A stretch of 64,000 nt of DNA from assembly GCA_037043015.1 (NCBI GenBank), contig CM073326.1, forward strand, positions 18,050,345-18,114,344. The letters are read 5' to 3'. The DNA comes from Bryum argenteum. Lineage: Eukaryota > Streptophyta > Bryopsida > Bryales > Bryaceae. Below, in pieces: positions 26,271 through 64,000 of the stretch (position 1 is the stretch's first letter; each line of letters opens with the position of its first letter). The notes beneath the pieces are model-generated. The model was not told the origin of the DNA. It saw only the letters and a list, made by a program, of their open reading frames with translations, and ran no database searches. The position numbers and the translations under genes are program-made.

Positions 26271-26555
26271 GGGAGGCCGCCGGGTGGAAGGACAGGCCGG
26301 GCGGTGTAACTTCCGGCGGCGCCGACCGCCCCGGGCTGACAAGCCCGTGATCAATGCGCCGCCAAAAGGTACCGCCACCCACCTCCCCCACTCCGTTGTC
26401 TTTAGCGGCCAAATTCGGCCGTTACCCTCCTTTTTCTCCTCCTCCTCGTTTCTCGTGCCTCCGCCGACTCTGTTGCTCCCGAAGTCGTGTACGCACGTTC
26501 CTGCTCCACGCGGCCGTCCTGTACGCCATAACCCGGGGAAGGAGAGTACGGAACC

Positions 26556-29500: not shown

Positions 29501-29820
29501 CGCAGGCACCCCCCTGCCCGGATCCGGTCGTCCCATTGGAGCCATCTGATCTCGGGGCCCTCCCCGAGAAGGCACTACCCGCGGAGATCATCCCCCTCAT
29601 CCACGAGGACTTGATCGAGGTCCCGGAGATCGGGGAGGCTCTCCCGGACACCTCAGCCCCGATGCCTTCCGGAGACACTGAGATCCTTGGGAGTGAGGAT
29701 ACTGCTCCAGCGCTCCAGAAGACGGGGAACGAGGAGGAGGAGGTCACTTCCCAACCCGGGTTGGGAGCACAGAAGGTCGAGACTACCGAGACTGCCGAGG
29801 CTTCCGAGGCTGCGAAGTAG
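26556..29820 (+). pseudogene. Decayed family B LTR ORF
   Basis: Homologous to the ORF at 49166-52099, from MAGERASRTRS to a C-terminus ending near 29820 (TAEASEAAK). A TGA at 27192-27194 ends the first 212 codons (ECLHPGEITHL), where the other copy reads on (EITLFRML). Frame then resumes from 27195, and shifts again near 28350-28680 and near 29230-29400. This copy shows the natural end of the protein, absent from the other copies because of a late frameshift. The last 80 residues are acidic. Confidence 0.85.
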
Positions 29821-31306: not shown

Positions 31307-32796
31307 TGTCACATCCCTTTCCAAAGGATGCCCGAACACCGTGGTGAGCCGAGAGGACCCCGGGAGTGACGCCCCGGGCTTGGCAAGAGACAAGGTGAGG
31401 TGACCAAGGAGAGTCCCGAGCAAACAGCACGCAATGGCGTCGTGCTCGGGACGAACTTGGTGGCGTGTCTTACATGGTTGGAAACCTTGGTTGAGCACGC
31501 ATCCATGGGTCCAAAGAACACGCGATTTGGAGTTGTGAGTCATGAGATATGACTCTCCAAAGTTGGAGCGCGTTCCGGGACACTCCGGGACTCGGGAGTG
31601 TTGCCTTTCGGGACTCAAAATGTCGTCCCTCATGGATGGCGGCATGTTGCATGTCTTTGGAAAGCTCTGGACAAGAGCTTTCCAAAATGCTAAGGCTCGT
31701 GAGGAGCAAAGCAATGCTTTGGGAGATATGGCTCTCCAAAGCATCGGGACTTCGGGACTCCGGGACTGCTGCCTCCCGGGACTCCCGAATGTTCAGAGGA
31801 GCATAGCTCCCACATGGAAGCTTCGATTGGGACAAGTGAGGAGTCTATCGACATCTACTCAAAGAGTAGATGTCGAAAATGGGCTCGCACGTCCCATTTG
31901 GATAACTGAGCTACAAGTTAGCCCGAGAAGAAGATACGGCCCGTTTTTGAGGCTAAGGCAAAAACGGGTGGTCTTCCAAAACAAAAGTGTGTCACGGAAG
32001 GCCCCTCAACACAAGAGGGGGGGGTCTACCGAAGACTCCAGAGAGTACTATGAGGAGGGGTGGTCTCCCTCCTCACTTGCACATGGTGCCTTGAGGAGCC
32101 GGGGTGGCTCCAAGGGGTGAGGCTTGGGATGGGGCCTCACTCCCGCACCTTGTGGAAAGTAGAGGGTGCTTTGGAGCCTCTCTAAACATGGGGTTGGGAA
32201 GTGTCCCTCTCCAAGTTAGTCCCCGTGATAAGTAGTGCCGGTTCCCGGGAGTGACCGGGAATGGCTCAAGAAGGTGAGGCATGGAAAGGAAGCCTTACTT
32301 CTACATCTTGGGCATTGTGGGATGCTCTTGAGCATCCCGCAACATTGGGTTGGAAAGAGTCCCGCTCCAAACTAGTCCCCGGGAAAACTAGTGCCGGACT
32401 CCGGGAGGATTTCCGGCAAAGTCCCGAATGGGGTGAGAAACAAAAGTGGAAGGGGACTAGTGGGAAGTTGGAAAATGGGTAAGGGCGGTTAGCTCCGGGG
32501 GTGATTAGTGTTACCCTTGGGAGCTTGGACATTTGTGGAAGGCCGCCCCGTGCCACCAAGTGGCATGCCCATGTGTTTTGTGGGAGTTCCGATTTACGGG
32601 TTCCGGATAATGATTGGGGGAGTCAAGGTGGGTTGGACACCTTGACTTAGAATGGTGCTAACATTGTGTGTGTGGGGCACATGCAAGTGTTAGCAAAGTC
32701 GTGGCCGGTTGCTACCAACTAAGTGAGCCGGGATTCCGCTACCAAGTAAGGCTCACTAAGAAAAAAAAATGTGTTGGAGTAATTAGGGTCGCGACA
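31307..32796. mobile_element. Solo LTR of a third family, C (1,490 bp), TSD AGCGG
   Basis: Runs from TGTCACATCCC to GGGTCGCGACA. The flanks 31302-31306 and 32797-32801 are both AGCGG, a perfect 5-bp duplication. Removing it restores the transposase frame. No large ORF; short open frames inside look random. The orientation is not certain because neither a polypurine tract nor pol is present. It contains imperfectly repeated words around CTCTCCAAAG (31550-31740) and ends with an A-rich stretch at 32759-32769. Confidence 0.9.
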
Positions 32797-33631
32797 AGCG
32801 GAATGACAAACCGAGGTTGTTACTGATGTTAGTAGTCATTGTCCTAGTCCAGACATGACCATCATATCTTTTGTCCATCCCTTCCATAGATTTGGCTACC
32901 TTGACAGCAGTAGTTGGTAGAACAGGAGGGAGAATGTAGAAGACATCACCATTGAAAGTGGGAGGCAGGAAAGAGACGCTGTGAGTACGAATGGAATGGA
33001 AATCTATTTTTTTGAGTATAGTTTTGTTGCGAGACATACTACCTAGTCTACGGAGCGAGGATAGAATGTTTTTGGATTTTAAGACTGTGGACGCGGGATG
33101 AGTAACGGGGGTCGTTCTGAGACTGTGTTCAGATCCAGACGAGGGGGGAGGCAGAGTCGATGACAGTCGACGGGATTGGATGGACGCTTTTCTTTCATCG
33201 TCGGATGAATCAGAAATATCAATTCGGACTTCGAGTCCAGGTTCAACCTTGACACGAGTAAGAACTGGACGAATAGTGGAGATGGTAGAAGAACTGCGAG
33301 GAGTGAGGAGGACGGTGGAGGCGTTCATGACGGACTCAGTCAAGCCAAACAGACGATACTGCCCGGGTTGTAGTTTATAGATTTTTGAGTTACCTTCGAG
33401 GGCGACAGGTTCGACAAGCACAGAGTAGTCGACAAGATCAGTGTTAAGGTCTAAGACTTGATTCTCTAACCACAGAGAGGACTCATCAAACCCGAAACGA
33501 ATTGCTAGCCAAGACGGAGTGATTTCAGCCACTCCATCCACCCCCGGAGGAATGTAGATAGGGGGGCCTAAGCCTTCAGACCTAACGGCAATGACGTTTG
33601 CAGCTCGAGGCAAGAGAGCGGAGGATGCCAT

Positions 33632-34182
33632 GATAGACGGAGGCGAGGATGACTGCATCAACAAGTGCGCAGAGAAAGAGAGTCTGAGGTGCGATTTGAA
33701 TGTTCAAATACAAAAAATTGGTGTAGGGTGTTTGCATACGTATTGAATACTTATTAAACGTAATTTGTTAGAATAAATCGTACATATACCAGATACTCTA
33801 AATCGTGAGCACGATCATTTAAAGGGACATAACTTATAATACTCAAAATATCGAGACTGACAAAGTTGCATTATGTAGTCACGATTAAAAATTAGAGATT
33901 CGTCGATAAAATAAGTAGGGAGTTAATGTAAAGTGACGGCGGCAGTCATTGTCAGAGTTCTTGGTGGATAATAGATGCGATCAGAAGTTAGCTTATTTGG
34001 GATTGTCTGACACGGTGATACCAAGATGTTCGGGAATACGCGTTGGCTGATTAGGGTTTTTTAGCCGCATGGGGGAACTTATATAATGGAAGTGTAACTC
34101 ATATGTCGACCTCTTCATTTGCAGTGAGAACATTTGGACTAGTGAGGTAGAACGGGTGCTAAGTTACTTGAGTGCAAGCAGC
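33632..34182. promoter_or_regulatory. Divergent promoter region, copy 1
   Basis: The 551 bp between the transposase start (minus) and the gene B start (plus). A TATA-like TTATATAAT lies at about 34079-34087, about 100 bp before the gene B ATG. A TGACGGCGGC word (near 33933) also occurs in similar form in the same region of copy 2 (TGACGGCCGCC near 63312). Both genes probably start here, so their expression may be linked. Confidence 0.55.
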
Positions 34183-37100
34183 ATGGACGAAACGGGTAGC
34201 GTTAGTGAGAGAGGAAAGGAGATAGGTCAGAGAAAGAAAAAGCGGAGGGGTGGAACAAAGTTCACTAATTCAAAAGCACAGAGGCGTTGTGCTTTGCGGA
34301 AGCGCGATGGGAGAAGCTCCAGCGGCGATGATCGGGAGCAAGACGGGTACGATATCTTGATCGATGATGATGTTCTACCGCCATTCAGGCGGAGTATCAA
34401 AATGCGATCGCTCAACCTCGACACTGTCCCAGAGTGTGTCGGGACGGACGAAGCTGAAGAAGAGGAGGAGGAACGGAGTACAGGGCAGTTTAGAACGTCT
34501 GCCGAGACCGTTTTTGTCGATGGAGATGACGACGAAGGTGGGGACTCCTTACATGAGGTAAGGAAGTAGTGTATCTTACTAATATGTGGATACTCGTAAA
34601 AGTCAATGTATACCTGAAAACGTATATGAATTAACTGAAACATGTGTTGCCTTCAGGGTTGTAGAGGATCAGAAGATGAAGACGGTAGATCAGGAGATGA
34701 AACTCAAACGTCTGACGAGAAAAGAGTCACTGATTTGGGCGAAGGTGCAGAAACCTCTGTTCATCAGCAACCAAGTGCTGAAGAAATGGAGGAGGTACAT
34801 GAGAAACCCTACTTCGTGGTTTACTGGGAGGACCTAGGGTTGGTTAAGTATACTATCAACGAGAACTCATTCTTTACCTCCAAGTAGTACTGAGTATTCA
34901 TATGTGTTTATGTTGGTTTCATGATATATATGGACCAAAGACTCAGAAATATTTCCTATCTGGATTGAATAGTGCAAATATTGTTTTCGTAGTAGTATGA
35001 TATATACGTATTTGATGATGTACAAACGTAGTTATAAATATTGTGAATGCAATGATTTCATAGTTAAATTAAATCGAGTGTCTGATGTACCCCATGTGGA
35101 TGTTCGGAATATTTTTCACGATTGCATGGGAATTGTCACTTGAGCGAAACATTGCCTATGATGGAGATGGGAAAGATACGTAAAAAATGAGTCTAATATA
35201 TTTTTAAGAGTTGTTATCAATGCAAGTGATGTCGAAGTTCTTGAGTTCAATTTGAAATATGAGTATAGTTATAGTTGTGTACTCAATTGACTAGTCCTAT
35301 ACTCAATGAGAATAATAGTATGTGATAGGAGTTCAGTTTTTTTTAAAGGAGTGGCAGGATTTGGTGAAGAATTGGATGATGCCCGGCGGGCACACGATCA
35401 TGAAGGGCGGGGTCACGGCGGCCACGGGGTAATGACTAACACCAAGTCACGACGGACAGGGGGATTGGTCAGGGGGTGTGGACTAAGATCCGGCGGTATT
35501 GGAATATGAACGGCCAGTCGTCGGAGGTCAGCGCGGGCACCGGGCTACACCAGCAGGTACCGGGTATCTGCCGGTATGGGGGTCGATAATGGGGGCGGGG
35601 AGGCCTCTGGGTTCGGGTGAGCTGGTGGCTCGACTCCTCCGCCAGCAGCGCTGTGTCCAGCGTTGGATGCCTGCCTCGCTTTGACCTCCAGCGCCATGAC
35701 CCCGCCTCTTTTAGATCTGTTGCCCCCGGCTCTTCGAATTGTGGAGAGGCGATTTCGTTTTTAGATTCTATTAATTCCTAAACGCCGATGCATAGAACGG
35801 CTGTGCTATGATTGGCATAAAGCTGATTTTAGAAAGAGGCAATGTAAATCTCTGACAGAATGGGATGCCCTAAGTTGATACTATACAGATCTAAATCGAA
35901 GATAGTGAATGTCCATGATACGGAGCGGTTTCTTTGGTTTGTAGGAAGGAGAAGAAGGAATGGCGGAATCGACAGAGAAGGAGGTGGAAATGCAAGGTGG
36001 TGAGAAGCACGTGGATGAAGGTCTCCAGAATGTGAGTTCGACGTCCTCGGATTCAAGTTTGTTTGCTGAATTTTACAGGGAACATCGTTATGCTCCTGGA
36101 GAAGCTATCAAAACACGAGCGGAGTTGGAGGCATGCTACTCCAGAGTTTTGAAGGTATGTTTTAAAAAACCCTAAATTGTAACTTAGATTACAGTGATTC
36201 TCCCAAAACCCTAATATACAATCAGTATCTCCTAATTCTATCCTATCTCCGGGGACACTCCGTATTCTTGGTTGAGTTTTTTGGGGGATTACTGGGCTTG
36301 CCATGGAGACCTGCTGTGCCGCAGCTCAGGCTCGTGAGGCCGGTCATGAGACTGCTTCCATATCTCCCCGAAGGGGCAGGCAAATCTGTGAATGTTGATT
36401 TTTTTGATCATTGGGCTTGCCGTGGAGACCTGCTGTGCCGCAGCTCTGGCTTGGATTGCAGGGACTTGACAAGTGGTTGGGGATGTGTTGCCCGGCATGA
36501 CAATGTCGGTGCTGAGACGCTCCCAATGTCTCCCCAATGGGGCTTGCCGTGGAGACCTGCTGTGCCGCAGCTCAAGCTCGTGAGGCCGGTCATGAGACAG
36601 CTATCATATCTCCCCGAAGGGGCTTGCCGTGGAGACCTGCTGTGCCGCAGCTCAGGCTCGTGAGGCCGGTCATGAGAGAGCTTCCATATCTCCCCGAAGG
36701 GGCTTGCGTGAATTTCCGAATGTTGATTTCGTTGAGTACTGGGCCTGTCGTGGAGACCTGCTGTGCCGTAGCTCAGGCTCTTGAAGCCGGGCTTAACAAT
36801 GCCGGTCATGAGACAGCTCCCAATGTCTCCCCGTAGGGGCCGGTCTCGAATTTTTGAATGCTTTTGTCGTTAATTATTGTGCTTGCTGGGCTTGCCGTGG
36901 AGATCTGCTGTGCCGCAACTCTGGCTTGGATTGCAGGGACTTGACAAGTGGTTGGGGATGTGTTGCCGGGCTTGACAATGTCGGTCCTGAGACGCTCCCA
37001 ATTTCTCCCCGAAGGGCCATGCCGTGGAGACCTGCTGTGCCGCAGCTCAGGCTTGGATTGCAGGGACTTGACAAGTATTCCGGCTGTGTTGTCGGGATTG

Positions 37101-37721
37101 ACAATGTCGGTCCAGTGATGAAGTTTTGGCTGGTCAGACTTATTTTGGGAATTGTTAATGACTAAACTCTGTATGCTTCGTGGCGTATGTCACGATGATT
37201 TTCGAATGGGCAAGATCTAACCCGCTTGATGTGATTTTCGTGGAACTCTGTCTTCTAACGTTTTGGACCCTCTGCCATTGTACTGAATTTGATTGGGGTT
37301 GCAAATACTGCTTTCCGCATGTACATGCTTAATAATTTCTAATTAGCAATATTCATTTTGTCTGGATTGTGATTAATCTTTCTGATGGATATAGTGTATG
37401 TGAATGCAGGTCCCATTGAAAGTTGAGGCCGTCCAAAAACACGAGGAATCTGATGCCGATAGCGACTTATCGTCTTTGAGAGATCATGTCATGGCCGTAG
37501 TAGAGTCCCGTCGATTGGTGGTAGCACTGACTTCGGTTCCAGAAACTCCGCCTTCTGCCCCTCCTGTCCGTTCCACTTCCAGTGGAATTCTTGATTGAGT
37601 CGCACTAGCGGTTAACATTCGAATAAAGAAGGCTAAATCCAGACGTCTTGAAGCCAAAGCTTTAGCTAGACTTGCACCCAGGCGTTCTCCACGACTTGCA
37701 GCAAAGTTGAAATCTATCTAG
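34183..37721 (+). pseudogene. Gene B, copy 1 (four exons, one premature stop)
   Basis: Exons 34183-34557, 34657-34794, 35945-36154 and 37410-37721, all with GT-AG borders at the same places as copy 2 (for example GAG|GTAAGG, AG|GTATGTTTT). The product begins with a Met-Asp start, then a strong basic motif KKKRRGG suggesting nuclear entry, then acidic Ser-rich stretches. Exon 3 encodes FAEFYREHRYAPGEA, matching WREFYMSRRYGLEGA of copy 2. The C-terminus is LARLAPRRSPRLAAKLKS in both copies and ends at a conserved stop. In exon 4 an in-frame TGA at 37596-37598 stands where copy 2 has Arg, consistent with CGA to TGA. No known domain recognised. Introns 2 and 3 hold GC-rich repeats. Confidence 0.75.
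36290..37110 (+). repeat. Tandem repeat in intron 3 of gene B, copy 1
   Basis: About seven imperfect units built on GCCGTGGAGACCTGCTGTGC (starts near 36300, 36420, 36547, 36627, 36746, 36894 and 37021), with spacers GCTCAGGCTCGTGAGGCCGG and ATATCTCCCCGAAGGGGC. Spacing varies from about 80 to 150 bp. The block is GC-rich within an AT-rich element, and spurious open frames cross it on both strands. The same intron of copy 2 has an unrelated array. Confidence 0.85.
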
Positions 37722-37853
37722 TTCAATGACATCTTATCTGATACTTATAACGTCTTCGTACACGACTTTTTATTTTGATTATTAATTTATTACTTTATTG
37801 ATTTATTCTTATACTTTTAGTGCGATGTTGTATTATTTTTTTTGATTTGTCAG

Positions 37854-39904
37854 ATGAGAATATCCGAGCTTCAATCACTTCAAGACAAAGAAGATATCTC
37901 CCTTGAAAAATTTGAGTCACGTCCTGTACCTGAAGAAGATGATAGCACACCCGTGCCACAAGGAATTGTAGAACACATCTCTTCTCCACTTCCACGTGAT
38001 ACTCCTACCGAACTCGAGCCTTCTCCGAAGGCTTTGCAAGATCCCGTTGGTCACACTTCTCCATCGGATGACGAGGAGTCTTCTTTGCCAGAGTGTCAAC
38101 GTCGGCATCGTGCACATGCCACCCCATCTCCAAAACAAAGATCCTGATTGGAGTGCCAATGAGATGCGGATGATCCACAAAAGTGATTCCATAGCAATCA
38201 GATGGAGCGACCAACAATGCACGTAGACGTGGTCGACCGTTGACTCAGATTTCTGTAGGCGCTCTTACGAATGCGGGGTCCCCTCAATCTTTCACTGTCG
38301 ACCACAGCTCCGGAAAGAAGTTCGCTTCACTCCCATTTCTTGAACCGAAGCATGTTGGCGAGTGCTCGTCTTCTGAGATTACTATTTCTCTCCCAATGTA
38401 CTTGGAAAAAGGGGATATCGGAGCTTCTGTTCAAAAGGCGGCTCATGAAACAAAAGATTGGGACACGCAAATCATGGACATTATTAACCACATCAGAAAG
38501 GTTTTATGTCTTATATCTCTTATCACTTCTGTTATTTCTGAAATTCTGTTCGGAACATATCGTTTGCAACATGTCTAACTTTTTTTGATTTCCACAGATT
38601 GGCAAGGACCGGAAGTACCCATGTAAGGAGATGGGCACGAAACACCCGCATCCCGGCATTGATCTCATCTACGCAGACGTACCCGAGAACTTACCCGTGC
38701 CTGACGTGTCGCCCGTCGAGATCCCTTCATGGAACAAGCGAGAGAAAAGCTACTTCGAGAGTGTGTTCTTTTTTGCTTTCTACAACTTGACAGACGAGGG
38801 TGCGATACTTGTTATGCATCCGAAAGATCGTTGAGTCGAGAAAGCTCTGGATGCCGAGTCGAAGGCTTTCGAATTCCGAATGGTGCGAGATTGGTGGGGA
38901 TATAATCCCATACCAATGGCCTCGACTAACCCCCACGTGAAAACGGTATGGTCTTCATTGTGCAATCAAATCATCATTTATGATTATTTACAACATTCCT
39001 TTAAATCTCTCTCATCTTTTGAATTTTGCACACTCACAACTTCCACATTAAGGTGTTTGTTCGGAAGTCTTTTGCCACGAGATTCTCCATAAGACAGGTT
39101 GCGAAAGAGTACGCAGGTGTGCCCATTCTTCCCGACGAGGAGGACCATGTTTTCAATTTCGCGAGCAATGACTCCATTCGTAAGAAGGAAGATGGTACTC
39201 CGTGGCGTGGCTCGCGTGAGAAGGACCCCTCCTTCATCCAATGTTTCATTGATTCTCTCACAGACGAGCGGGGAATCGTCTTTGACTGGAGCCCTAGTAC
39301 AGGTTAGTTGTTGCTTATATGAACTCTCATTTAACTCAATCAATATTGTAGTTCTGATGTTAGTTGCTCGTATGTAGGTGCTTCCGTGATTGCGTGCGCG
39401 CGATCGAACCGTCATCTCATAGCTGTTGAAGCTGATGAAGAGATATTTGACGGACTTTTATCGGCATACGTGGATGGTACCGCCTTTGAGGAAGAAAGTG
39501 GCGATTCGGATCCAGTTTATGACTACGAGAGTGACACTTCCGAACCGCTTCAGAAGAAGCAACGCCCAACATTTTGTGCGTACTTATATCTTACTTTTCC
39601 CCCTTCTATTGTTACCTTCACTTGCTAATAATTCACTGGTATTGACTTTTTCTGTACTTTTAGAATCGCAGGTTCCAATCGACGCTTGATTGGCGACGCT
39701 AGTCTCTACAGCAGTCCTTCGCAAACTTTCACCCTACCATCTTATGCGGAGCAGATAGCTCAGGAATTTGTCGCTGCCCCTTCTCCCGTCTTATCCGACA
39801 CTAGTAGACGTCGACGCTTTAGCTCGAGAGTGCTTGCGTTTATAGACGATGAGGCTGATCAGTGTGACCAACACTTTAATGGTCGTTCACCATCAACTTC
39901 TTAG
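37854..39904 (+). pseudogene. ParB/methyltransferase-like gene, copy 1, internally deleted
   Basis: Homologue of the gene at 54676-58959. The start (MRIS, at 37854, directly after an acceptor TTTGTCAG) and the acidic N-terminus are present, then GIVHMPPHLQNKDPDW as in copy 2. Near 38093 a 1-bp loss shifts the frame. At about 38203 the sequence jumps from SDSIAI to a segment matching exon 6, so the ParB core and the next four exons (over 2 kb) are gone. The methyltransferase-like part remains: IYADVPENLP, an in-frame TGA near 38832, REKDPSFIQC and IVFDWSPSTG, ACARSNRHLIAVEADEE and the C-terminal tail ending at 39904. It cannot encode the full protein. Confidence 0.85.
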
Positions 39905-40735
39905 TAGTTTTTATTTTCCTGGTTTGGTTTGGACTACGTAGGGATATAGTCCTACGGCATTGGTCATACATGTGGTTTTATTATACGTTTTTATATCTAT
40001 ATATGATGTTTACCTATTACTCGTGAAAGTTTAACGCTTTCTTAATTTATATCTAATTGTTCAAGTTTTAAACTCAATGCGAACTAAAAGTTTCTGAATG
40101 TTTTTTTATTTTCAATTGAAGTGATTGAGTCTAGCCAATGTTGGTAGGGGCACTAGTTCACTGTTTGTATAGCTCAGGATAGCTGCCTTACGACGCACTG
40201 CAACGCTCAAACGAGGCCGAGGAGAATCGAACTCGGACCACTACAATGCCACGTGAATGTCTTTTTGTACACCTTACAAGGAGACACGGAAAGACGACTT
40301 GAATTTATAAACTTCATATTATAAATACAGAAGAATTTACATATAATTTTTATAAGTGTAATAGGAAATTGATGACGTCAGCCCTAATTATACTATACAT
40401 ATTACAATAGTCAGAGTAAATTTTTTGATGTCCTAATGGGCCCTCCCAGATTTTGGTTAAAGTTTTGTATTTGAAAGTGAACGAGGCCAGTATATGATTT
40501 GAATTGTATGGGTTACATATGATGATGTAAACATTAATTTAATTTACTTCTACTTAAACTTACAAATGTGGAATATTTATGGAATATTGTAGGACCTCAA
40601 TACCATGCAAAGAAATGCATGAAGGACCTATATCCACGGTTTTGGGTACTTTTATGCCTAAAAATAACCATTTAAAAATTTCAAAACCACCCATTCCATG
40701 GTAATAGGGCAATTAACATTTGAATTATTTTTTTC
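39905..40735. other. Subterminal noncoding region of MULE-like copy 1
   Basis: AT-rich, with no gene. Parts are shared in inverted orientation with 53605-54675: the tRNA-like block, GATGACGTCAGCCC near 40372 (a TGACGTCA palindrome) and the stretch around CCACCCATTCCATGGTAATAGGG near the tip. The sharing between two diverged copies suggests these are functional subterminal sequences. Confidence 0.7.
40169..40274 (-). other. tRNA-like conserved block near the transposon end (copy 1)
   Basis: On the minus strand it contains GTGGTCCGAGTTCGATTCTCC, which resembles a T-arm and RNA polymerase III B box (GTTCGANTC). The whole block, from AAAGACATTCACGTGGCATTG to CAGCTATCCTGAGC, is conserved in copy 2 at 54107-54221. 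I cannot fold a complete tRNA from it, so it could be a tRNA-derived SINE remnant or a small pol III RNA. Confidence 0.4.
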
Positions 40736-40803
40736 TTACCGCTCAAACCTTACCGCTCACCGCTCACCGCTCACCGCTCAACGCTCACACCGGTGGTTTC
40801 CCC
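40736..40803 (-). repeat. Cargo-side terminal repeat with heptamers
   Basis: Inverted counterpart of the left end: TTACCGCTC, CAAACC, then CCGCTCA units and CGCTCAACGCTCAC, ending in a tip that reads GGGGAAACCACC on the minus strand. The outer 12 bp differ from the transposase-side tip, while GTGTGAGCG and the heptamers are shared. The tip matches 19 of 22 bases of the end at 53558. Confidence 0.85.
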
Positions 40804-53122: not shown

Positions 53123-53557
53123 GTGTCTCTGATGGATGCATCCACAGAGTTGGACGACACCGAACTTCCTGCAGAAGGGAAGAAGGTCATGGAAGATTCC
53201 CCGGAGGCCCAGTCCAGGAAGAGGGCAAAAGGACATGAGGTCGATGTTTCTACTCCGAAGAAGGGGAAAGGAAAGGAGGTCGCGGAACGAAGCCCAAAGA
53301 GGGGCCATGGACAGAATGCAGTGGCGACCCCTGAATCGACCCCAAAGAGGGGTAAAGGAAAGGCAGCTTGGAAGTCTACCCCGAAGAAAGGCCCGACAGC
53401 GCAGACTATACAGAAGAGCACTGCGTGTTTACCTCTCTCACTAGACGAGGAGGGATTTTTGGCAGAAATCGAGGGGAAAACACCGGCGACAACGGAGTCT
53501 TTACCGCCGAAGAAGAGCACGAGGAAGGTTCTTGACCTTGACGACCTCATCTGCATC
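53123..53557 (+). pseudogene. Basic SPKK/TPKK-repeat exon, 3' truncated by a transposon
   Basis: Open exon after an acceptor (TTATGAGTGCAG) reading VSLMDASTELDDTELP and then repeated TPKKGKGK, SPKRGHGQ, STPKRGKGK and STPKKGP units. S/TPKK motifs bind the minor groove of AT-rich DNA in histone H1-type tails, so a chromatin or DNA-binding role is possible. The frame ends at the MULE-like terminus (53558). It follows the acidic gene at 44480-47524 on the same strand, beyond a solo LTR, and may be a further exon of that gene or of a neighbour; no linking donor is clear. Confidence 0.5.
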
Positions 53558-53604
53558 GGGGAATGCACGGGTGTGAGCGGAGAGCGGTGAGCGGTGAGCG
53601 GTGA
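53558..53604 (+). repeat. Terminal repeat of MULE-like copy 2
   Basis: A 22-bp tip ending GGTGTGAGCG and four or so GAGCGGT-type heptamers. The array is shorter than in copy 1, so unit number varies between copies. Confidence 0.82.
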
Positions 53605-54675
53605 TTGGCAGAATTTTTTTTTTTTTTCATGAAAGATTAAGACCCTATTACCACTCATTGCAAAAAAATTATAAAAGTTAATAGCCCTATTACCATGAAA
53701 TGGGTGGTTCTGAATTTTTGAAATGGTCAGTTTTAGGCCAAAAAGTACCCAAAACCGTGGATATAGGTCCTTTATCCATTTATTTTCATGGTAGTGAGGT
53801 CCTCCACTATTTCATAAATAAGCCACATTTGCAAGTTCAAATAAAAGTTCATTAAATTATGGGTTGGAGTCATCATGTGTAACCAAATTAATTCAAATCA
53901 TATACAAAATGTAAACCAAAATTTGGGATGGCCCTTTAGGTAATCAGTAAGTTTAATTTATTGATTTTGATTTTGATTTTAAGATTTAGAGAATAATTAG
54001 GGCTGACGTCATCAATTTCCTATTACACTTGTCAGAATTATTGATAAATGTTGCGGATTATATAATCTGAAATTTATAACTAGAGGTCGTCTTCTTGTCT
54101 CACCTTGTAAGATGTAGAGAAAGACATTCACGTGGCATTGTAGTGGTCCGAGTTCGATTCTCCTCCGCCTCGTTTGAGCGTTGCACTGCGACTTAAAGCA
54201 GCTATCCTGAGCTATACATATAATAGACTATAGCCCTACCAACATTGGCAAGATTCAATCACTCCAATGGAAAATAATAAAAACCTTCTGAAGCTTTTAG
54301 GCTGCATTGAGTTTAAAGCTTACACATTTTCATATATCGATGCATGGAAATTGGAGTAGAAGAAGTTACATCAAAATTAGGGCTGACGTCACCGTTAAAG
54401 GAATGCTGTGATCGCAGCAACAGTGATTCTGGGAGTGATTCCAACTACGACTATTTGATTGGAAGTTAGAGTAGTTGTATGGCCACGACGCACACTTGGA
54501 TTGAGGGTTGGCTTGAATGTGCTTGAATATTTTGAATACAAATTAACGACTTATAAAAATATAAAACCGTATATATTGAAAAACATATATAGATAATATA
54601 TAAGTAATAGATCATGGAAAACTACGAATGTATGGCGCTACCATGTCCAGTACATATCGGAAAACAAATCACAAA
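53605..54675. other. Subterminal noncoding region of MULE-like copy 2
   Basis: AT-rich with no gene. It shares with copy 1 the sequence around CCATGAAATGGGTGG near 53693, a TGACGTCA palindrome (54004-54011, and CTGACGTCACC near 54385) and the tRNA-like block. A poly-T run lies at about 53616-53629. Confidence 0.7.
54107..54221 (+). other. tRNA-like conserved block near the transposon end (copy 2)
   Basis: Contains GTGGTCCGAGTTCGATTCTCC followed by CGCCTCGTTTGAGCGTTGCA, the counterpart of 40169-40274. The T-arm or B-box resemblance is clear, but no full cloverleaf is evident. Conservation in two copies that differ widely elsewhere speaks for function or for recent common origin. Confidence 0.4.
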
Positions 54676-57600
54676 CTAGGCCGACGGTGTAGTACCATTA
54701 AAGTGCTGATCACACTGATCTGCCTCAAAGTCTATAAACTTAAGCACACTCTTGCTAAAACGTCGACGTGGAGTGTCAGACAGAATGGGAGATGGAGCTT
54801 GAACAAACTCTTGAGCAAGACGCTCAGCGTACGAAGGTAGGTTGAATTTCGATGGAGGGCTTCTGTAGAGATGAGCGTTGCGAGACAATCGCTCTTTCAG
54901 ACCTGCGATCCTAAAATTGCAAAGAAAGTCAATCTCATCGATATGTAAGTGTGTTTTTTTAATCGAAAAAAAAAATACAAGATGAAATTACGCACCAATG
55001 AATTTTCGTGGCTTCTTCACGACTGGTTCGTCAGAGTCATAATCTGCGGGAGGGGCCGATTCTCCACTTTCTTCATCACCGGGAGGACCATTCTTGTAAT
55101 CCGCGAGTACTCCATCAAAGATTTCTTCGTCAGGTTCCATAGCGATGAGGTGTCGGTTGGAGCGCGCGCAAGCAATCACAGAAGCACCTACAAAATCGGA
55201 AGCCCACGTTAGAAATGCGAAATGTAGAAACAAATTCTAATGAAGAGTGAACGAAAACAATACCTGTACTTGCGCTCCAGTCGAAGACTATACCCCCCTC
55301 GTCCGTGAGACAATCGACGAAACATTGAATGAAGGAGGGGTCCTTCTCTCGTGAGCCTCGCCATGGCGTACCGTCCGGACGATAACGCAATGTTTCCTTC
55401 TCTGCAAAGTTACAGAGGTGGTCTTCCTCGTCAGGTACGATTGCCACACCCGCGTATGCATGTGCTACTTGCCGGGTTTGGAACTTCGACACATACTCTT
55501 TACGAACATAGACTTTGATGTGGAAGCAGTGAGTCTGTGAAACAGAAGCACAAATATGTTAACATATAAACATAGAAGGAAATCATCATGAATATTGAAA
55601 TCAGAAACTAGAATATGGTTCATACCACTTTCGGTTTTGGTACGGTAGAGGCCATAGGGAGGGGATTATATCCCCACCAGTCTCGAATAAGACGAAAACC
55701 ATACATATGAGACTCAGAATCGACGCTACGCTCGATTTTCCGACATTTTGGATGCATCAGAAGAATGGCTCCAACGTCTGTAAAATGATACGCGGCAAAC
55801 ACGAAGAGGCTCTCAAAGTAAGTTTTGTCACGCCGGTTCCAGGATGGGATTTCTGTTGGAGACACCCCCGGTACAGGCAAGTTCTCGGGAGCATCTGCAA
55901 AAATGAGATCAATCCCTGGATGCTTGGGTTCATACTCCATCGCCGAACACGGGTACTTTCGGTCTTTTCCAATCTGAGGTACATGCCAGTAATTAGATAG
56001 TGGCTAATAGAGTAACAAGTACAAAACGAAATAAAGTAGAAAATAATTGAAAAATGTATGAAGTAGTACCTTCCTGATGTGCTCGATGATATCGAGAATT
56101 TGCGAATCCCATTTGGCAGTCTTTGACGACTGATGAACCAAATCTCCAATGTTGCCCTTCTCGAGATACATAGGTAGAGTGACTGAAATTTTTGACGACG
56201 AGCTGCTACCAATGTGATTGGGTTTTGGCAGAGGGCGTTTGGCGAATTTTGGCTGACTGAGACGGCGAGGCGACTGCGGGGAGTTGTGGTCTACGGTAAA
56301 GGACACGGGAGGGGATCCCGCATTTGTAAGACCACCTCCGGAAACCTGAGTGAGTCGTGCACCACGTCGAACGACGTTGACTGTCGCACCATGTGAAGTC
56401 TGAGTAAGGTCAGCGTCCTCGGGAGCTTCGAGTTGGAGAGGAGCGGTATCACCGGAATGTTGTTGAAGATCCTCTGCAGGGTCCTCAGCAGTGTTGCGTC
56501 GCTTCTTCCTCGCTCGAGCTTTAGGGAGCGCTGCCGGGGACGGTGGAGGAGAACTTGAGCCAGGTGCACTTGGTAGAATCGAGACGTCGTCGTCGTCATC
56601 GTCATCATCGATCTCCATGGGTGCATCGTGAGCGCCAAGCGAACCGAGGTTTCGCACAAGTTCTTTCTCCTCCTTGTGCACGAAGTTAGCATGGCACTCA
56701 AGAAACCAACCCCCCGTCAATAACTGTGCGTCAGTAAATTGCCTTTGCTGGGATTCGGAGAATATGCTCGAGGGATCGTTTGTGACTGCAACGTCTTCCA
56801 ACTCAATAGGAATGGCCCATGAAGCTAAAGCCCCTTTGGCTACAAGCTCTTGCTTCAAGTACCTACAACCAAATGAGCCGATAAGATAAGTGGAATAAAT
56901 TATGTGAAGCAGAACTTTGTAGTGGATACAAAGTTAGTGGTTGGCATACCGGAATAACAATCGTTTGATGGTGACTTTGCCACCTGCAATCTTATAAATA
57001 TCGGTGCCTTTGATAAATTTTGGGCTGGCATTTGGAGCGAGGTAGTTGGCGAATGCCTTCTCCCAGTATAGCAACCTCCACTTCTCGACATATGGGGATG
57101 GCTTGAGGATGGCGTCTGACCATTGAATGTTGAGATTCTCTTTCTCGATAAGCTTATCCAATTCAGTTTCAAGAGACTTCTCCAACTGCACATTGATAGA
57201 ACACGTTGAGAAATGTATCAATCAAATGGGAATAGTAAGTAAAACAGAGAAGTAGAGACCAAATTACCTGTGCCCATAGAGAAGCACGATGAAGAAAGGT
57301 AATGAGACTTTTATCCTTCATCGGGCGGTCCTCCGGGAAGTGGACCGAACGTCGAACATCGTTTGGTGAGTTCCACCATCGCAACCACTTTGCCTTGAAA
57401 TCGAAGTGAACATTGGTAGTTGCTACCATGTGCAAGCGATCGATTGTCATGTCCGGTTTGAGGGTTTTGCTGTAGTGTGCATAAATCTGCACACACGACG
57501 GATTGGGATATAGAATTCAGTGTTGGAAAACAATCATACATAAGCGCGAAAAGAACCTAAAAAAATAGACATACACACCTCTTTTGGGAATTGTCTCCCA

Positions 57601-58959
57601 AGATTGTAATTCGCCACAGCGACCATCTTGTCAAAATTTTTGCCACGGATTGCTTTTATTTCTGCTTTGATAGCATTATCCATGGCACTCCATACTCCTG
57701 GACCTGATTGCTTCTCTTTCGGGATAGTGGCATAGTAAGCAGTCTCAGCATCGTCGGATGCTTTGGCTAACCTCCTCTACACAATACAAACCAAAGATAT
57801 GACGATGTGACAAAGTAGACATTATGTATTAACGACAAGGGCGTATTTAGAGAACTTACCGAATACAAGAACTTAACGAAAACGTCTAGGGTGACTGGGT
57901 ACCAAGTTTCTTTCTTGGCCTTGGCGTTCTTGCAGATTCTGTAGTCCTCTGGACTTATGAGATCTTTGAAATCGTGCAGTTTGAGCTTACCAAATTTCCT
58001 CATGCGTTGAAGCTTGGCGCAAAGGCTGTCTTGCACATGGTCATGTTCAGTAGACCTAGAAATCACAAGAAGAAGTTAGGAACAGTGGGGGGAGATCAAT
58101 TATAGAACAAACTAAAGAAAAAGATTGAAAATCACTCTTACCAGTTGATGTCATTCATAACGTCCAGGAGCAAACTGCTTTGCCCGCGTGCATCAAGGAT
58201 GATGCAGTCGACCGAAATATGCCACGAAGCATCGAGCTTATGGTACCTTTCGATGTGACGCATCCACGCCGTAACACGATGGTTACCTTCGTAAACATAA
58301 AAGTACTTGCCGATGAGATGATGGAGATCAGGATCCGCCTGCAACGTCTTGTCGAACTCGTCGTTCGCCTCTCTCCAAAGCGTATCCTTGAAGACATCAT
58401 CTCCAGCATCCACTATCTTTTCTCTCTCTTTTCTATCAAAGGGAGACACGTACATGACCCGGTCGCCCTCGCGATAGCCCTTGTTGAACTCTTTCTCCAA
58501 TTTCCGGACGTCTTGTTCCGAAATAGGACGAACCTTAGGATAACAAATAAGGCGACACAACGGAATCAACATGCGAGATTTCTTCACGGGTTTGAAACGC
58601 AACCTGTTGATGATCGCGATTGAATCACTCTTGTGAATCATTCGCATCTCGTTTGCACTCCAGTCGGGATCTTTGTTTTGGAGGTGAGGGGGCATGTGAA
58701 CAATCCCGACGTTAACACCTCCCGGCAATGCAGGTTCCTCGCCATCGGAAAAAGAATCGTGTCCATCGTCCTCATCGAATGTTTGAGGAAGATTGGCAGT
58801 TTCGGACGGACTTTCGCCGAGAACCGCATCGCTCGCGCCTTCTAGCATTTGTTGCTCAGGAACTACCTCGTCTTCACCAATGGGGTTCTCATTTTGGTCA
58901 GTCAGACGAGGTTGGACATCTTCTTCTTCATGAAGCGGTGAAGTTGGTGACAATCTCAT
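54676..58959 (-). CDS. ParB-like domain fused to a DNA-methyltransferase-like domain (10 exons)
   Basis: Exons (about): 58959-58142, 58055-57860, 57776-57579, 57486-57268, 57185-56950, 56862-56070, 55973-55626, 55534-55264, 55187-54992, 54910-54676. Lengths sum to 3,510 bp, one frame of 1,169 residues, and every junction is GT-AG. Residues 1-80 are acidic. About 130-258 resemble a ParB/sulfiredoxin-like domain: IPLCRLICYPKVRPI, then YEGNHRVTAW with the GNHR signature. About 275-580 are helical and unassigned; 600-770 are low complexity with an Asp run and KARKKRR. About 821-1050 follow beta-class DNA methyltransferase order: motif IV-like IFADAPE (DPPY is canonical), then GAILLMHP, and motif I-like IVFDWSASTG followed by IAMEPDEE. 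The ATG directly follows an acceptor. Phage and bacterial ParB-methylase fusions are known; this one sits in a eukaryotic transposon. Activity is unproven. Confidence 0.75.
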
Positions 58960-59098
58960 CTGGAAAGAAAAACAACGAAGTACAACAAAGCAAAGACATA
59001 ATAAGAATATGTCAATGAAGAAATGAAAGATGAATATAGTATTAATTTGGATAAATTATAAAATTGATAATTTAATAACATATCATGATGTCAATAAT

Positions 59099-62000
59099 CT
59101 ACTTAGACTTCAACTTTGCGGCGAATCGAGGTGAGCGTCGGGGGGCAAGTCTGGCCAATGCCATGGCTGCGAGACGTCGTGCTTTTGCTTGTGCACGATA
59201 GTTTCGCATGTAGCTAACCCGTGCAACCCGATCAACATCAACACTTGAAGTGTGACGGACAGGAGAAGCAGGAGGGGGCGTTTCAGGAACCGAGGACAAA
59301 GGTATTGTTAAACGGCGATACTCAACTACTTTCTGAACATAAGATCTAATTTCCGATAAGTCGCTATCCGTGTCTGATTCCTCGTTCTCAACGGCAGGTT
59401 TCTTCACAACATTCTCAAGATCCTGCATTCCCACGCACCAAAACTTAAGAAAGCAAATATCAACAAACATATTCAAACATCCTACATTACCAATACATTC
59501 TTCATGGGATCCTGCAACTACATTCAAGCAACATTCAAAAGCAAAATGCAAAAAAACAATGTGATAGTCGTCCTTCCGAGGCCAGCCTTGCGTGGACGCA
59601 AGGTTGACACTCGTCGGTCAAAATCGGCCAAAATTTACAGACTCCTCATCCAAAAACCAGGACCGGCACTTCAAGGACCTGCACGGCCAGATTCAGGAAG
59701 ACGAGGAGCTCAAGCAGCACGCTCTGGCCGGCCCCCCTCCACGAGGCTGGTCCTCCACTACGAGATGGTGGTACCAGAGTAGATCAGAACAAGACGGCCA
59801 CCACGAGGACGGCCCCCTCCACCCGCTGCGGATCAGCAGAGAGCTTCATCGAGGACCAGCCCCCTCCGGCACCTCCAAATCACCACTTTGCAACATGGGA
59901 TCCAGCAACTACATTCAAGCAACATTCAAAAGCAAAATGCAAAAAAAACAATGTGATAGTCGTCCTTCGAGGCCGACCTTGCGTGGGACGCAAGGCTGAC
60001 ACTCGTCGGTCAAAATCGGCCAAAATTTACAGACTCCTCATCCAAAAACCAGGACCGGCACTTCAAGGACCCAGACCAGCAGTTCAGGAAGACGAGGAGC
60101 TCAAGCAGCACGCTCTGGCCGGCCCCCCTCCACAAGGCTGGTCCTCCACTACGAGATGGTGGTACCAGTGCAGATCAGAACAAGACAGCCACCACGAGGA
60201 CGGCCCCCTCCACCCGCTGCGGATCAGCAGAGAGCTTCATCGAGGACCAGCCCCCTCCGGCACCTCCAAATCACCACTTTGCAACATGGGATCCAGCAAC
60301 TACATTCAAGCAACATTCAAAAGCAAAATGCAAAAAAAACAATGTGATAGTCGTCCTTCCGAGGCCAGCCTTGCGTGGACGCAAGGCTGACACTCGTCGG
60401 TCAAAATCGGCCAAAATTTCTGAGACTCCTCATCCAAAACCAGGACCGGCACTTCAAGGACCCGGACGGCGATTCGGGAAGACGAGGAGCTCAGCAAAGA
60501 CGCTCGGCCGGCCCCCTCCACGAGGCTGGTCCTCCACAAAGAGATGGTGGTACCAGAGTAGATCAGAACAAGACGGCCACCACGAGGACGGCCCCCTCCA
60601 CCCGCTGCGGATCAGCAGAGAGCTTCATCGAGGACCAGCCCCCTCCGGCACCTCCAAATCACCACTTTGCAACATGGGATCCAGCAACTACATTCAAGCA
60701 ACATTCAAAAGCAAAATGCAAAAAAAACAATGTGATAGTCGTCCTTCCGAGGCCAGCCTTGCGTGGACGCAAGGCTGACACTCGTCGGTCAAAATCGGCC
60801 AAAATTTACAGACTCCTCATCCAAAAACCAGGACCGGCACTTCAAGGACCCAGACCAGCAGTTCAGGAAGACGAGGAGCTCAAGCAGCACGCTCTGGCCG
60901 GCCCCCCTCCACGAGGCTGGTCCTCCACTACGAGATGGTGGTACCAGAGTAGATCAGAACAAGACGGCCACCACGAGGACGGCCCCCTCCACCCTCGGCG
61001 GATCAGCAGAGAGCTTCATCGAGGACCAGCCCCCTCCGGCACCTCCAAATCACCACTTCGTTCATGGGATCCAGCATTAACATTCAAGCAACATTCAAAA
61101 GGTTACATCAAGGTCGTCTCGATCAACAGTGGGCTTCATCGGGGTCTACCCCCCTCAGCCCTTTCTTACGGGAGCCAGCCTCCGAACTCTACATACTGAC
61201 TAGATGGAGATTGAGGATTGCGGAAGTGAGATCTTCACTCGAAATACAAGAGCAACTGGGGTTTTTCATGAATGCAAAACATACCTGGAACTTGCTACTG
61301 TGCCTGTTCTCCAGCTCCTTTGAAGATTTCAACGCTCCTTCCAGACCATATCGACGACTCATATAGAACTCTCTCCAAACCCTCGATTCTGGACTTGTAC
61401 TCACATTTTGCAGATTCGAATCAATGTTCTCGCCCTCGCTTTGCACTCCCTCCTCTTCCTCGACTCTGTTCGCCATTTCTTCCTCCTCCAAGATTGCTTC
61501 TCCGCCCTGCAACACCCTCTTCTAGTCGATGAAGTAGATCTAAACCCTCTCTTTTAGATTCCACTACAAGACAAGAATTCAAAATCTCCATTCTATTTCG
61601 GAGCGGCATCTTCTACTGTCGATGCTAATTGAACTTCGATGCTACGTCAAAAGCCTGCCAGCGAGATTCTCCTTACTGGATTTTGCCCGCTCGGCTGCTA
61701 CTAGAGAATTAGGGTTCGATGCGATGCTGCGGCGCTGGGCGGAGGACACCACAGTCTCCATCCCCGTCCCTGCCTTATCAAGCTGAACGAGTCAGGCTAA
61801 GAACCGGCCCGGCACTGAGGACCGGGTACCGCGTGGGTATCGAATAATGAACCAGTTAGGCTAAGAACCGGGCCCTGCACTGAGGACCGGGTACCGCGTG
61901 GGATCCGGATATGGTATGGAACCGGTGTGGGAACCGGGTGTGGGAACCGGGCGTGGGAACCGGGCGTGGGAACCGGGCGTGGGAACCGGGCGTGATACCC

Positions 62001-63049
62001 GGGCGGGGGGACCGGGCGTGGGAACCGGGCGGGGGGACCGGGCGTGGGAACCGGGCGGTGGGACCGGGTGTGGGACGACACTGTATGGTAAATTCGATTA
62101 ATATACTTAGTCACTGGGGTCGGTATTAATATGGTTGAAATGTATAATATCAAATCTAACATATACTTAGTATTTGTACATAATCTTCCATCCTCACCAA
62201 TTACAGATCGATATCTACTATAAGATCAAAATCTACTTTTCACAGAATCTACTTCGTCAAGTGTAATCCTAATCGCATTTCTACTCTAACGAGGTGAATG
62301 CTAAAATATGCCCGGAATCCTGCATGACACTAAAAAAAAACAACATGTCATTTACCTCCTTCTCTAAAATGCGATTTGTGATATCTTCATCTTCTTCAGT
62401 ATCATTTGTTTTCCTCATAGATCCCATCTGCTCCTCGTTCTCAGCACACTCATTTAAATCCTTCTCCTCCTCGTTAAAACTTATATCGTCTACTTCATCG
62501 TCATTGGGACTTCCGTCAGCATCGCCCTAATTTGCAAACAAAGGAATCATTCAACTCGCAATCACCTCAATTTCCAATAAACCAAATCATTAAACTCAAG
62601 ATCTAAGTGTTCACTCATAAAAAACATCATGAATACTTACGTACCTGACTCAGAGTATTCTCCACAGCCTCATCAGTCTTATTAGGCCCCGTGTAATAAC
62701 ATAGTGATTCGCTGGACGTTGATCCACTTCTACAGCGCTCCTGCTCCTCTACAAATTTCTTGAACTCGTTCCCATCTTCATCTGAATCTTTCTCGACAAC
62801 CTCGTTTACCGTGTCAAGATTGATCGATCGCATTTTAACGTTCCGCCTATACTGCGGCCCGACTTCATCGTCATTCAGATCTAAATCATCATGGCCTCCC
62901 TCATCTCCACTCGACCTAGATGCACTCACCTTTCGCAATGCGCTTCGTTTGCGTGCTTTTGTGTTACTAAAACGCATACCCCCTCTCCTCTTCTTCTTCT
63001 TTGGCACACTCTCTATGGATCTCTCAGGCCCCATGCTCACCGCGTCCAT
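59099..63049 (-). CDS. Gene B, copy 2 (four exons, 373 aa), unknown cargo protein
   Basis: Exons about 63049-62645, 62526-62356, 61506-61285 and 59422-59099, each a whole number of codons (135, 57, 74, 108 including the stop). Donors and acceptors sit at the same places as in copy 1. The start MDAVSMG is preferred over an upstream Met because copy 1 also begins Met-Asp. Visible features are the basic KKKKRRGG motif (residues 17-24), acidic Ser-rich exons 1-2, the exon 3 segment VWREFYMSRRYGLEGA, and in exon 4 SSVPETPPPASPVR plus the basic end LARLAPRRSPRFAAKLKS. The tail looks like DNA-binding or nuclear-localising sequence. It is transcribed towards the methyltransferase-like gene, 140 bp ahead of it, so they could share a transcript. 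Confidence 0.75.
59521..61100. repeat. Four 390-bp tandem repeats in intron 3 of gene B, copy 2
   Basis: Units start at CATTCAAGCAACATTCAAAA near 59521, 59912, 60303 and 60691, with a fifth partial start at 61081; period about 390 bp. Each unit holds GTCGTCCTTCCGAGGCC, CGTCGGTCAAAATCGGCC and GACGAGGAGCTCAAGCAGC. They are GC-rich and open on the plus strand, antisense to the gene, which is why long but repetitive open frames appear there. Units are nearly identical, so the expansion is recent. Confidence 0.92.
61801..62075. repeat. GC-rich minisatellite in intron 2 of gene B, copy 2
   Basis: Two copies of a 65-bp unit (CACTGAGGACCGGGTACCGCG near 61812 and 61877) lead into some eleven units of 13-15 bp of the type GTGGGAACCGGGC up to about 62075. 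The block interrupts AT-rich intron DNA and gives spurious open frames on both strands. Confidence 0.88.
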
Positions 63050-63559
63050 AATGTCAAAATGCTCTAGAAATGGACAAAGACCGTAACGTCTCAATGCCTT
63101 ACCTACACCAACTAATCGAAGAATGGAAAGGGCCAAATTGTCGTCCTCCTCCTATTTAAACAAAATTGACAAGCCGCCACCTAACCTAATTTGCGCAGTT
63201 GATCATTAATGATCAACTCAACTATGACGGCTAATACGCTGCCAATCGTGTCAGTCTCTGACATGAGATACTAATCTATTTTTTGAATTTAGATACGAAT
63301 GCTCTGACAGTGACGGCCGCCGTCGCTTTTCCAAATCTGACACTGTCGACACTTGCGCATTAAGGACACTAAATACAATTGCCTAATAGTTTTCAACATT
63401 TACTCTTTAGTATTTTAAATATCAGATTTACCCAATCTACTGTATTTATTACTTTATTACAGCTTCCAAAAACCAAATTCCACTTATAAACAGCATCACA
63501 TTATGTGTGTATCCTTTTCTCACATCCACTGTCGATTCTCCTTGGTTCTCTAGCGCATC
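63050..63559. promoter_or_regulatory. Divergent promoter region with a perfect palindrome, copy 2
   Basis: The 510 bp between gene B (minus) and transposase (plus). On the plus side CTTATAAAC lies at about 63482, 78 bp before the transposase ATG. On the minus side TTTAAATAGG lies near 63154, about 105 bp before the gene B ATG. Between them at 63197-63218 is a perfect 22-bp inverted repeat with half-site AGTTGATCATT. TGACGGCCGCC near 63312 recalls TGACGGCGGC of copy 1. Confidence 0.55.
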
Positions 63560-64000
63560 ATGGTTTCCTCTTCCTCTGAACCCTCTCCTGCAGACATTGT
63601 TGAGATTGTGTCACAGGGAGGACTTGTTCCTATTTGCATGTCCGTAGGGCTTGAAGGTGTCGTAGACATCACTGCATCGTGGCTTGAAATTCGATTTGGC
63701 TACGATGCATCTTCCCTGTGGTTAGAGAGAGAAGTTCTTGAACCCGTTACTAATCATATTCAGTACTCCATGGTCGTAGATCCAATCATCCTAGACGATA
63801 ATACCACAATCTGGAAGCTTAGAGCTGGAAAGTATCGCCTCTATGGCTTGACAGAGTCCGTCATGAACGCCTCAACAGTTCTCCTGACCCCACGTAGTTC
63901 CTCTACTATATCCAACGTAGCTCCAGCTCTTGCTCGTGTCAAAGTCGAACCAGGTCTCGAAGTCACCATTGACATATCGGATTCATCAGAAGACGAGAAG
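63560..64000 (+). CDS. MULE-like transposase, N-terminal part of copy 2 (runs off window)
   Basis: The ATG at 63560 (MVSSSSEPSP) is followed by 147 codons without a stop to the window end. It aligns without a gap in the first 41 residues with the start at 33631 of copy 1. Shared motifs are ITASWLEIRFGYDASSLW, GKYRLYGLTESVMNAS, LLTPRSSSTIS and VKVEPGLEV followed by IDISDSS. This N-terminal domain has no function that I recognise; it precedes the Cys/His and DDE-like parts in copy 1. The identity of the substitutions, and whether the rest is intact, cannot be seen here. Confidence 0.82.
   Translation, partial: MVSSSSEPSPADIVEIVSQGGLVPICMSVGLEGVVDITASWLEIRFGYDASSLWLEREVLEPVTNHIQYSMVVDPIILDDNTTIWKLRAGKYRLYGLTESVMNASTVLLTPRSSSTISNVAPALARVKVEPGLEVTIDISDSSEDEK

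Follow-up and report, generated by a model that had tools for sequence, protein, structure and literature searches.

The window analyzed here is a 64,000-nucleotide stretch of the Bryum argenteum genome (GenBank assembly GCA_037043015.1, contig CM073326.1, forward-strand positions 18,050,345 to 18,114,344), and coordinates given below count from its first letter. The window contains, in part, element B, a large and autonomous-looking transposon that appears to be Mutator-like and whose two main genes are a predicted transposase gene and a divergently transcribed accessory gene. The accessory gene, the subject of this study, is predicted to encode a protein with a ParB-like part and a DNA-methyltransferase-like domain. 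Upstream of it lie repeated palindromes, which differ between clades of the element and are candidate recognition sites of the encoded protein.

A spliced accessory gene within a large transposon

The element, its genes and a second, related element were placed as follows.

53558..64000, unstranded: element B, complete DNA transposon, part within the window (comparison of copies, sharp ends)
53549..53557, minus strand: target-site duplication GATGCAGAT (gene orientation), 9 bp, identical at the other flank
63560..64000, plus strand: start of the transposase gene, head to head with the ParB-like gene
58142..58959, minus strand: exon 1, 818 nt; variable N-terminus, then ParB-like domain with GNHR
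57860..58055, minus strand: exon 2, 196 nt
57579..57776, minus strand: exon 3, 198 nt
57268..57486, minus strand: exon 4, 219 nt
56950..57185, minus strand: exon 5, 236 nt
56070..56862, minus strand: exon 6, 793 nt; linker, partly acidic, low-complexity
55626..55973, minus strand: exon 7, 348 nt; methyltransferase-like domain, DAPE at the motif IV position
55264..55534, minus strand: exon 8, 271 nt; methyltransferase-like domain, motif I begins
54992..55187, minus strand: exon 9, 196 nt; motif I ends, motif II acidic residue
54676..54910, minus strand: exon 10, 235 nt; C-terminus, stop codon TAG
22628..40803, plus strand: element A, a second, decayed and interrupted element of another subfamily, with exons of the same gene at ~37.4-39.9 kb and an imperfect flanking duplication

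The accessory gene lies on the minus strand and comprises ten predicted exons separated by nine introns, all with GT-AG borders. The joined coding sequence (CDS) of 3,510 nt encodes 1,169 amino acids in a single frame with one stop, which is terminal. This gene model had been proposed in the original prediction, and it was borne out by the joining of the exons, by their conservation among copies and by the ratio of nonsynonymous to synonymous substitution rates (dN/dS). The ATG stands immediately 3' of a splice acceptor (TTTTTCTTTCCAG followed directly by ATG).

The conservation of the gene was examined in the whole genome (258.8 Mb in 25 contigs). Exon 1 alone gave at least 143 matches (142 of 1,224 candidates were scored), and the accessory gene is therefore highly repeated. 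Ten close copies were fetched with 20 kb each, together with six more divergent copies in which exon 1 was open. The copies fell into two subfamilies: the exons of the ten close copies were mostly 80-100% identical to the window copy, and those of the other six mostly 58-91%. An exon-by-exon search found the exons in the same order and the introns at the same places across copies, with truncated copies missing the lost part. After alignment-based splicing, five of 17 copies were fully open (the window copy, L015, L021, L034 and L035). The sample was biased: besides the window copy it comprised nine of the ten matches ranking next after it, six copies selected because exon 1 was open in them, and one neighbour; L027 and element A were too incomplete to be included. 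The gene model is thus not a product of chance, because its exons are conserved in other copies, the introns stand in the same places and 5 of the 17 copies are open; these observations, with the low dN/dS reported below, ruled out a chance reading frame. One apparently intron-less copy, L040, was considered as evidence of splicing and rejected, since it retains part of intron 7 and intron 8 and therefore represents an internal deletion. A further copy, L029/L030, which contains stops and has ~84% DNA identity to copy L009, occupies extended coordinates 71230-76087, ~3.4 kb past the far end of element B.

The accessory gene is under purifying selection. Across the whole CDS, dN/dS (Nei-Gojobori) was 0.11-0.18 in all ten pairs of the five intact copies, and synonymous distance exceeded 1 in the six pairs that span the two subfamilies. 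The ratio was 0.04-0.08 for the ParB-like part of exon 1 (in five computable pairs, the other five being saturated at synonymous sites), 0.05-0.17 for exons 2-5 and 0.05-0.18 for the methyltransferase part; residues 1-84, at 0.36-0.73, are under loose constraint.

Element B extends to position 67809, 3.8 kb past the end of the window, for a total of 14,252 bp. It begins with GGACGTAGCTACCGTGTGAGCGG and ends with CCGCTCACACCCGTGCATTCCCC, has subterminal AGCGGTG repeats, and carries imperfect terminal inverted repeats of ~50 bp with the common block GTGTGAGCGGAGAGCGGTGAGCGGTGAGCG. The 9-bp target-site duplications (TSDs) are perfect in element B and in L009 (14,868 bp, with GGGCACTAC at both flanks), and match at 8 of 9 positions in L021. 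The transposase gene lies on the strand opposite the accessory gene and is transcribed away from it; it is open to ~67326, beyond the window, in frames of 708 and 482 amino acids with one inferred intron between them, and is stop-free in L021 as well.

The complete element, its TSD and the transposase gene bear out the view that the accessory gene is the cargo of a class II transposon. Mutator-like elements (MULEs) are characterized by a TSD of 8-11 bp, terminal inverted repeats and a MULE-type DDE transposase, and a SWIM zinc finger at the transposase C-terminus is common in them, if not universal. Element B was labelled a MULE because of its 9-bp TSD, its termini and a sub-threshold SWIM finger (weak matches at E 0.11 and 0.5, below the cut-off), the features of MULEs being those given in a published account (PMC6446971). 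The MULE-like part of the original prediction thus stood as far as the TSD and the weak SWIM match fit; the transposase segments that were scanned matched no MULE or DDE Pfam model.

Domains of the predicted protein

The C-terminal domain is a well-supported relative, by sequence comparison, of the beta-class DNA methyltransferases, as had been predicted. All five members tested matched PF01555 (best E 5.7e-4, the window copy scoring under the curated cut-off), and phage DNA methyltransferase families were matched with a best E of 3.2e-5. A Lactobacillus phage methyltransferase was collinear with 94% of the domain (23.9% identity, E 3e-4), and a profile comparison against ten phage methyltransferases gave 93% probability (E 3.5e-7) in the motif I-II region, where two controls gave 1% and 0.1%. 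The predicted order of motifs, with a motif IV-like segment (GIDLIFADAPENL) before a motif I-like one (VFDWSASTGAS), was also found.

The catalytic motif IV of beta-class enzymes has the form [D/N/S]-x-P-[aromatic]. It was present as [D/S]-[P/L]-P-[Y/F] in all ten aligned phage members. At the same position the accessory protein has D-A-P-E or D-V-P-E in 16 of the 18 copies read, the exceptions being N for D in one intact copy and S for P in one decayed copy, and glutamate replaces the aromatic residue in all 18. As the neighbouring residues are conserved, this change looks settled rather than a product of decay. The acidic residue of motif II is retained, and so is the region of motif I, in which serine replaces the first glycine. 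On its sequence, the domain looks like a pseudo-enzyme or an enzyme with changed chemistry.

A separate methyltransferase-like family was observed in the same genome, represented by L038 (1405-2325) and L039, at C4:20498341 and C7:9878472. Its product scores at or above the PF01555 cut-off, and reads DTPF where motif IV is expected and VVDLTASTGAS in the motif I segment. A query of this type gave 56 genome matches, three of them strong and many of them short and located around motif I. This family may be a catalytically more normal cousin.

The segment YEGNHRVTAW, which had been read as a ParB-type signature, was located in exon 1. Of 17 listed copies, 15 could be read at the GxxR P motif of this exon, and 13 of these have GNHR; seven of eight members matched phrog_1033, a ParB-like phage family, with a best E of 0.0053. 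Exon 1 had no match in a phage record collection, a ParB_N search of four phage records gained nothing, and two scans of viral contigs confirmed no viral relative. Exons 2-5, which had no Pfam match, encode some of the most strongly constrained sequence in the protein.

Palindrome repeats upstream of the gene and other features

A 24-bp palindrome, CAGCCTTGCGT-NN-ACGCAAGGCTG, is located upstream of the accessory gene; clade-specific upstream palindromes were absent from the original prediction. In the window they lie within a tandem array.

59503..61101, unstranded: tandem array upstream of the gene, 391-bp unit, 4.1 copies; contains the palindromes
59583..59606, unstranded: palindrome copy, 1 mismatch
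59974..59998, unstranded: palindrome copy, 2 mismatches, spacer 1 base longer
60366..60389, unstranded: palindrome CAGCCTTGCGT-GG-ACGCAAGGCTG, exact
60754..60777, unstranded: palindrome CAGCCTTGCGT-GG-ACGCAAGGCTG, exact

An upstream tandem array was found in six of the eight elements scanned, with units of ~200-440 bp. One array unit, compared with units of four others, could be aligned over 25-86 bp only, mostly around the palindrome core. When sites were collected with up to three substitutions, the palindrome was present in 11 of 12 elements of the window subfamily (nine of the ten fetched copies, element B and one neighbouring copy), the exception being L011, which is cut 110 bp upstream; 9 of the 12 hold 4-18 sites. 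Most sites lie 0.65-5.8 kb upstream of the ATG, and three L027 sites at 10.3-11.1 kb may belong to another element. Among sites of exactly 24 bp, 58 of 69 (11 elements) were exact at all 22 specified bases. Over the per-element consensus strings the core averaged 1.98 bits of information and a pairwise identity of 0.99, whereas the outer flanks averaged 0.68 and 0.88 bits and an identity of 0.47. This conservation is partly built in because of the substitution limit used in collection; the core was first seen in a comparison that had no such limit.

Genome-wide, there were 181 exact copies of the palindrome and none of the reversed pattern. Of the first 50 palindromes listed on contig C1, 30 have a scored exon 1 no more than 7 kb downstream of them. 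Among the exon-1 matches with at least 79% identity on the part of C1 spanned by these 50, a line drawn after the data had been seen, 9 of 16 have an exact palindrome within 7 kb upstream and 0 of 16 downstream (random mean 0.09); with the four already-inspected copies excluded, the figure is 6 of 12. The more distant C1 matches, below 79%, have an exact palindrome in 0 of 37 cases.

Two further features of these sites were observed. In the per-element consensus, a T-run of ~5-17 bases occurs ~20-35 bp past the palindrome, towards the 3' side of the gene, and a similar order is seen after the palindrome of L058 described below; the T-run could serve as an RNA signal or as a tract free of nucleosomes. 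Palindrome copies with a CG centre occur away from scored exon-1 matches (on C1, for example, at 1525606, 5274549, 19216546, 21517798 and 31139391, the first being ~2.2 kb upstream of an exon-1 match) and possibly represent a third clade.

In the other subfamily, the six copies fetched included ~500 bp of upstream sequence each, so palindromes were assessed for L034 only, which was read 822 bp further. The adjoining locus, L058, contains upstream repeats of which three units are visible; one has a perfect palindrome, ACCTGCGGTACCGCAGGT, and the remaining two have apparent decayed forms of it. Genome-wide there were 42 copies of this second palindrome, grouped in five clusters (5, 4, 14, 12 and 7 copies), and none of the reversed pattern. 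Four clusters (30 sites) are located 0.9-5.5 kb upstream of exon 1 in copies that are 100, 97, 92 and 90% identical to L034, and three of these (25 sites) are independent of the place of discovery. Of the 141 listed exon-1 matches, the 135 with less than 90% identity to L034 all lie away from such clusters. Which palindrome is present thus follows the clade of the ParB-like gene. The second palindrome has no spacer, and is therefore better suited to a dimeric DNA site than to a hairpin.

Between the accessory gene and the transposase gene there seems, from its reading frames, to be a small gene with its own stop.

59102..59430, minus strand: small separate gene, probable last exon; ends RSPRFAAKLKSK-stop; 5' limit approximate; homologous frame in L009
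61290..61476, minus strand: same small gene, probable exon further upstream (MANRVEEEEG...HSSKFQ); approximate limits

More frames on the accessory gene's strand before the transposase (59102-61476 and 62284-63151) resemble one or two further accessory genes, small and with acidic or basic products. Elsewhere in the genome, 90 matches to PF00504 (chlorophyll a/b-binding) were recorded, which marks the organism as photosynthetic. Contigs C2, C3 and C5 have many clustered weak ones that are shorter than the light-harvesting matches; these resemble expanded early-light-induced-protein genes.

Proposed function, alternatives and relatives

In bacterial ParB-parS systems, ParB is encoded beside palindromic, repeated sites. 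The arrangement here would be alike, a ParB-like protein being encoded beside repeated palindromes, and differs in the sequence of the palindrome. By this analogy the palindromes would be parS-like sites, or sites like the targets of VANC from the Arabidopsis VANDAL elements, for the encoded protein, and the two would probably form a transposon self-recognition system directed against silencing. The ParB-like part, with the adjoining conserved exons 2-5, would recognize the palindromes as ParB recognizes parS, and the accessory protein would load onto its own transposon. The methyltransferase-like domain is favoured as a binding module because its motif IV is altered, and would serve mainly to bind DNA or S-adenosylmethionine (SAM). 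Loading would chiefly protect the element against silencing, with a possible second role in setting the expression of the two divergent genes, and the protein would in effect act like VANC while being built of other domains. The model as a whole, in which a Mutator-like transposon encodes a ParB-like/methyltransferase-like protein that recognizes the element's own palindromes mainly to avoid silencing, is put forward tentatively, at close to even confidence. A more specific form, in which each clade encodes a ParB and pseudo-methyltransferase protein and private palindrome repeats, protein and site co-diverging, and the protein coats the DNA of its own family and so escapes or overrides silencing, is possible rather than likely.

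Several observations weigh against this proposal. The ParB assignment of exon 1, which the original prediction had made, is plausible but weak, being suggested by the GNHR motif and the phrog_1033 match. The ParB-like part had no match in Pfam or NCBIfam, a profile comparison with P1/N15-type ParB was negative, and PDB sequence searches, that with the single sequence among them, gave nothing except two chance-level glutamate-receptor chains for the profile. L019 and L021 each have a single site and no array, and L021 is an intact copy. For 20 of the 50 palindromes listed first on C1, the nearest 7 kb contain no scored exon 1, and 7 of the 16 close C1 exon-1 matches have no exact palindrome; the 79% identity line followed inspection of the data, and the core conservation is partly built in, as noted above. 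Element A, which is decayed and of the other subfamily, has no first palindrome within three mismatches, and upstream of its gene no repeated palindrome was seen. The second palindrome is missing from two of the six matches with at least 90% identity to L034, and the fifth cluster (C10:4342750-4347279, twelve copies) has no listed exon 1 nearby; it is possible that this cluster marks an unscored or broken element, or a gene-less array. Finally, the first palindrome folds as a strong RNA hairpin (z -4.75), and could therefore act in RNA.

Three alternatives were weighed against the self-recognition model. It is fairly unlikely that the protein is an autoregulator or transposition co-factor only, setting the transcription of the divergent genes, or pairing or segregating copies, with no link to silencing. 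In favour of such a role, the sites lie between the divergent genes and upstream of the protein's own gene, and there is a lone site in two elements, of which one is intact, but arrays of up to 18 sites exceed, in our judgement, the usual need of simple autoregulation. An active DNA methyltransferase, which would bind the element and write N4-methylcytosine (4mC) or N6-methyladenine (6mA) to mark or protect it, had been suggested both in the original prediction and by the authors of an Ectocarpus study (PMC12477816), and is unlikely. The methyltransferase part is under purifying selection, the region of motif I and the acidic residue of motif II persist in it, and its phage relatives are annotated as DNA methyltransferases; however, motif IV has glutamate in 18 of 18 copies against Y or F in all ten aligned phage members, its leading D is N in one intact copy, and the first motif I glycine is S, so catalytic DNA modification was not borne out. 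It is very unlikely that the palindromes have no relation to the ParB-like protein and are RNA hairpins, or sites of another protein such as the transposase or a host factor: the hairpin is very stable and the consensus strings of the elements show a T-run after the site, but the spacer-less second palindrome fits a dimeric DNA site better, the terminal sequences, which are likelier transposase targets, are alike in element B and element A although these belong to different subfamilies, and palindrome identity tracks the clade of the ParB-like gene.

The original prediction knew of no described MULE with this cargo. The kind of cargo is not new, since a transposon gene combining ParB and a DNA methyltransferase has been published as the accessory gene of Sola1-1_Ec32 of Ectocarpus. 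As described in that account (PMC12477816), the gene resembles the present one in encoding a single protein of similar size (1,104 amino acids against 1,169 here), in its described make-up of ParB-like and N4/N6-type methyltransferase domains (the ParB part being weak here), and in lying opposite the transposase strand in a large DNA transposon. The Ectocarpus element belongs to the Sola1 superfamily, whereas the element described here has a 9-bp TSD, Mutator-like termini and a SWIM-like finger, and the section on the Ectocarpus gene makes no mention of palindromic sites or of a motif IV change. Fusions of ParB with an N6_N4 methyltransferase are more frequent in phages, according to a published account (PMC12704722); they share the domain pair and the GxxR P motif with the accessory protein, but are prokaryotic, and exon 1 has no direct sequence match in the phage collection.

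VANC of VANDAL21, itself a MULE, is also an accessory protein, and the relevant study (PMC5735166) places its target motifs in tandem repeats that evolve fast and turn over quickly between related copies, both within introns and in upstream regions. The palindrome repeats, four or more in 9 of 12 elements, would follow the VANC-type pattern as putative cognate sites. VANC, as described there, contains DUF1985/DUF287 and has short YAGTATTAC-type motifs, in contrast to the ParB/methyltransferase-like protein and long palindromes found here, and binding and hypomethylation are reported for it, whereas both would be putative here. No description of palindromic arrays in such transposons was found in the full-text literature, a search that covered few subscription papers and was little aimed at palindromes. 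The Mutator-like carrier, the altered motif IV and the clade-specific palindromes set the present case apart from the published kind.

If the proposal is correct, a bacterial centromere-like recognition module would have been turned into a self/non-self label of a transposon in a photosynthetic eukaryote, following the same logic as VANC, that of private and fast-evolving target repeats, by other means. For a gene class that has been reported from brown, green and red algae, the binding of the palindrome by the ParB-like protein would provide a concrete and cheap test, in which the two clades with different palindromes offer a built-in specificity swap.

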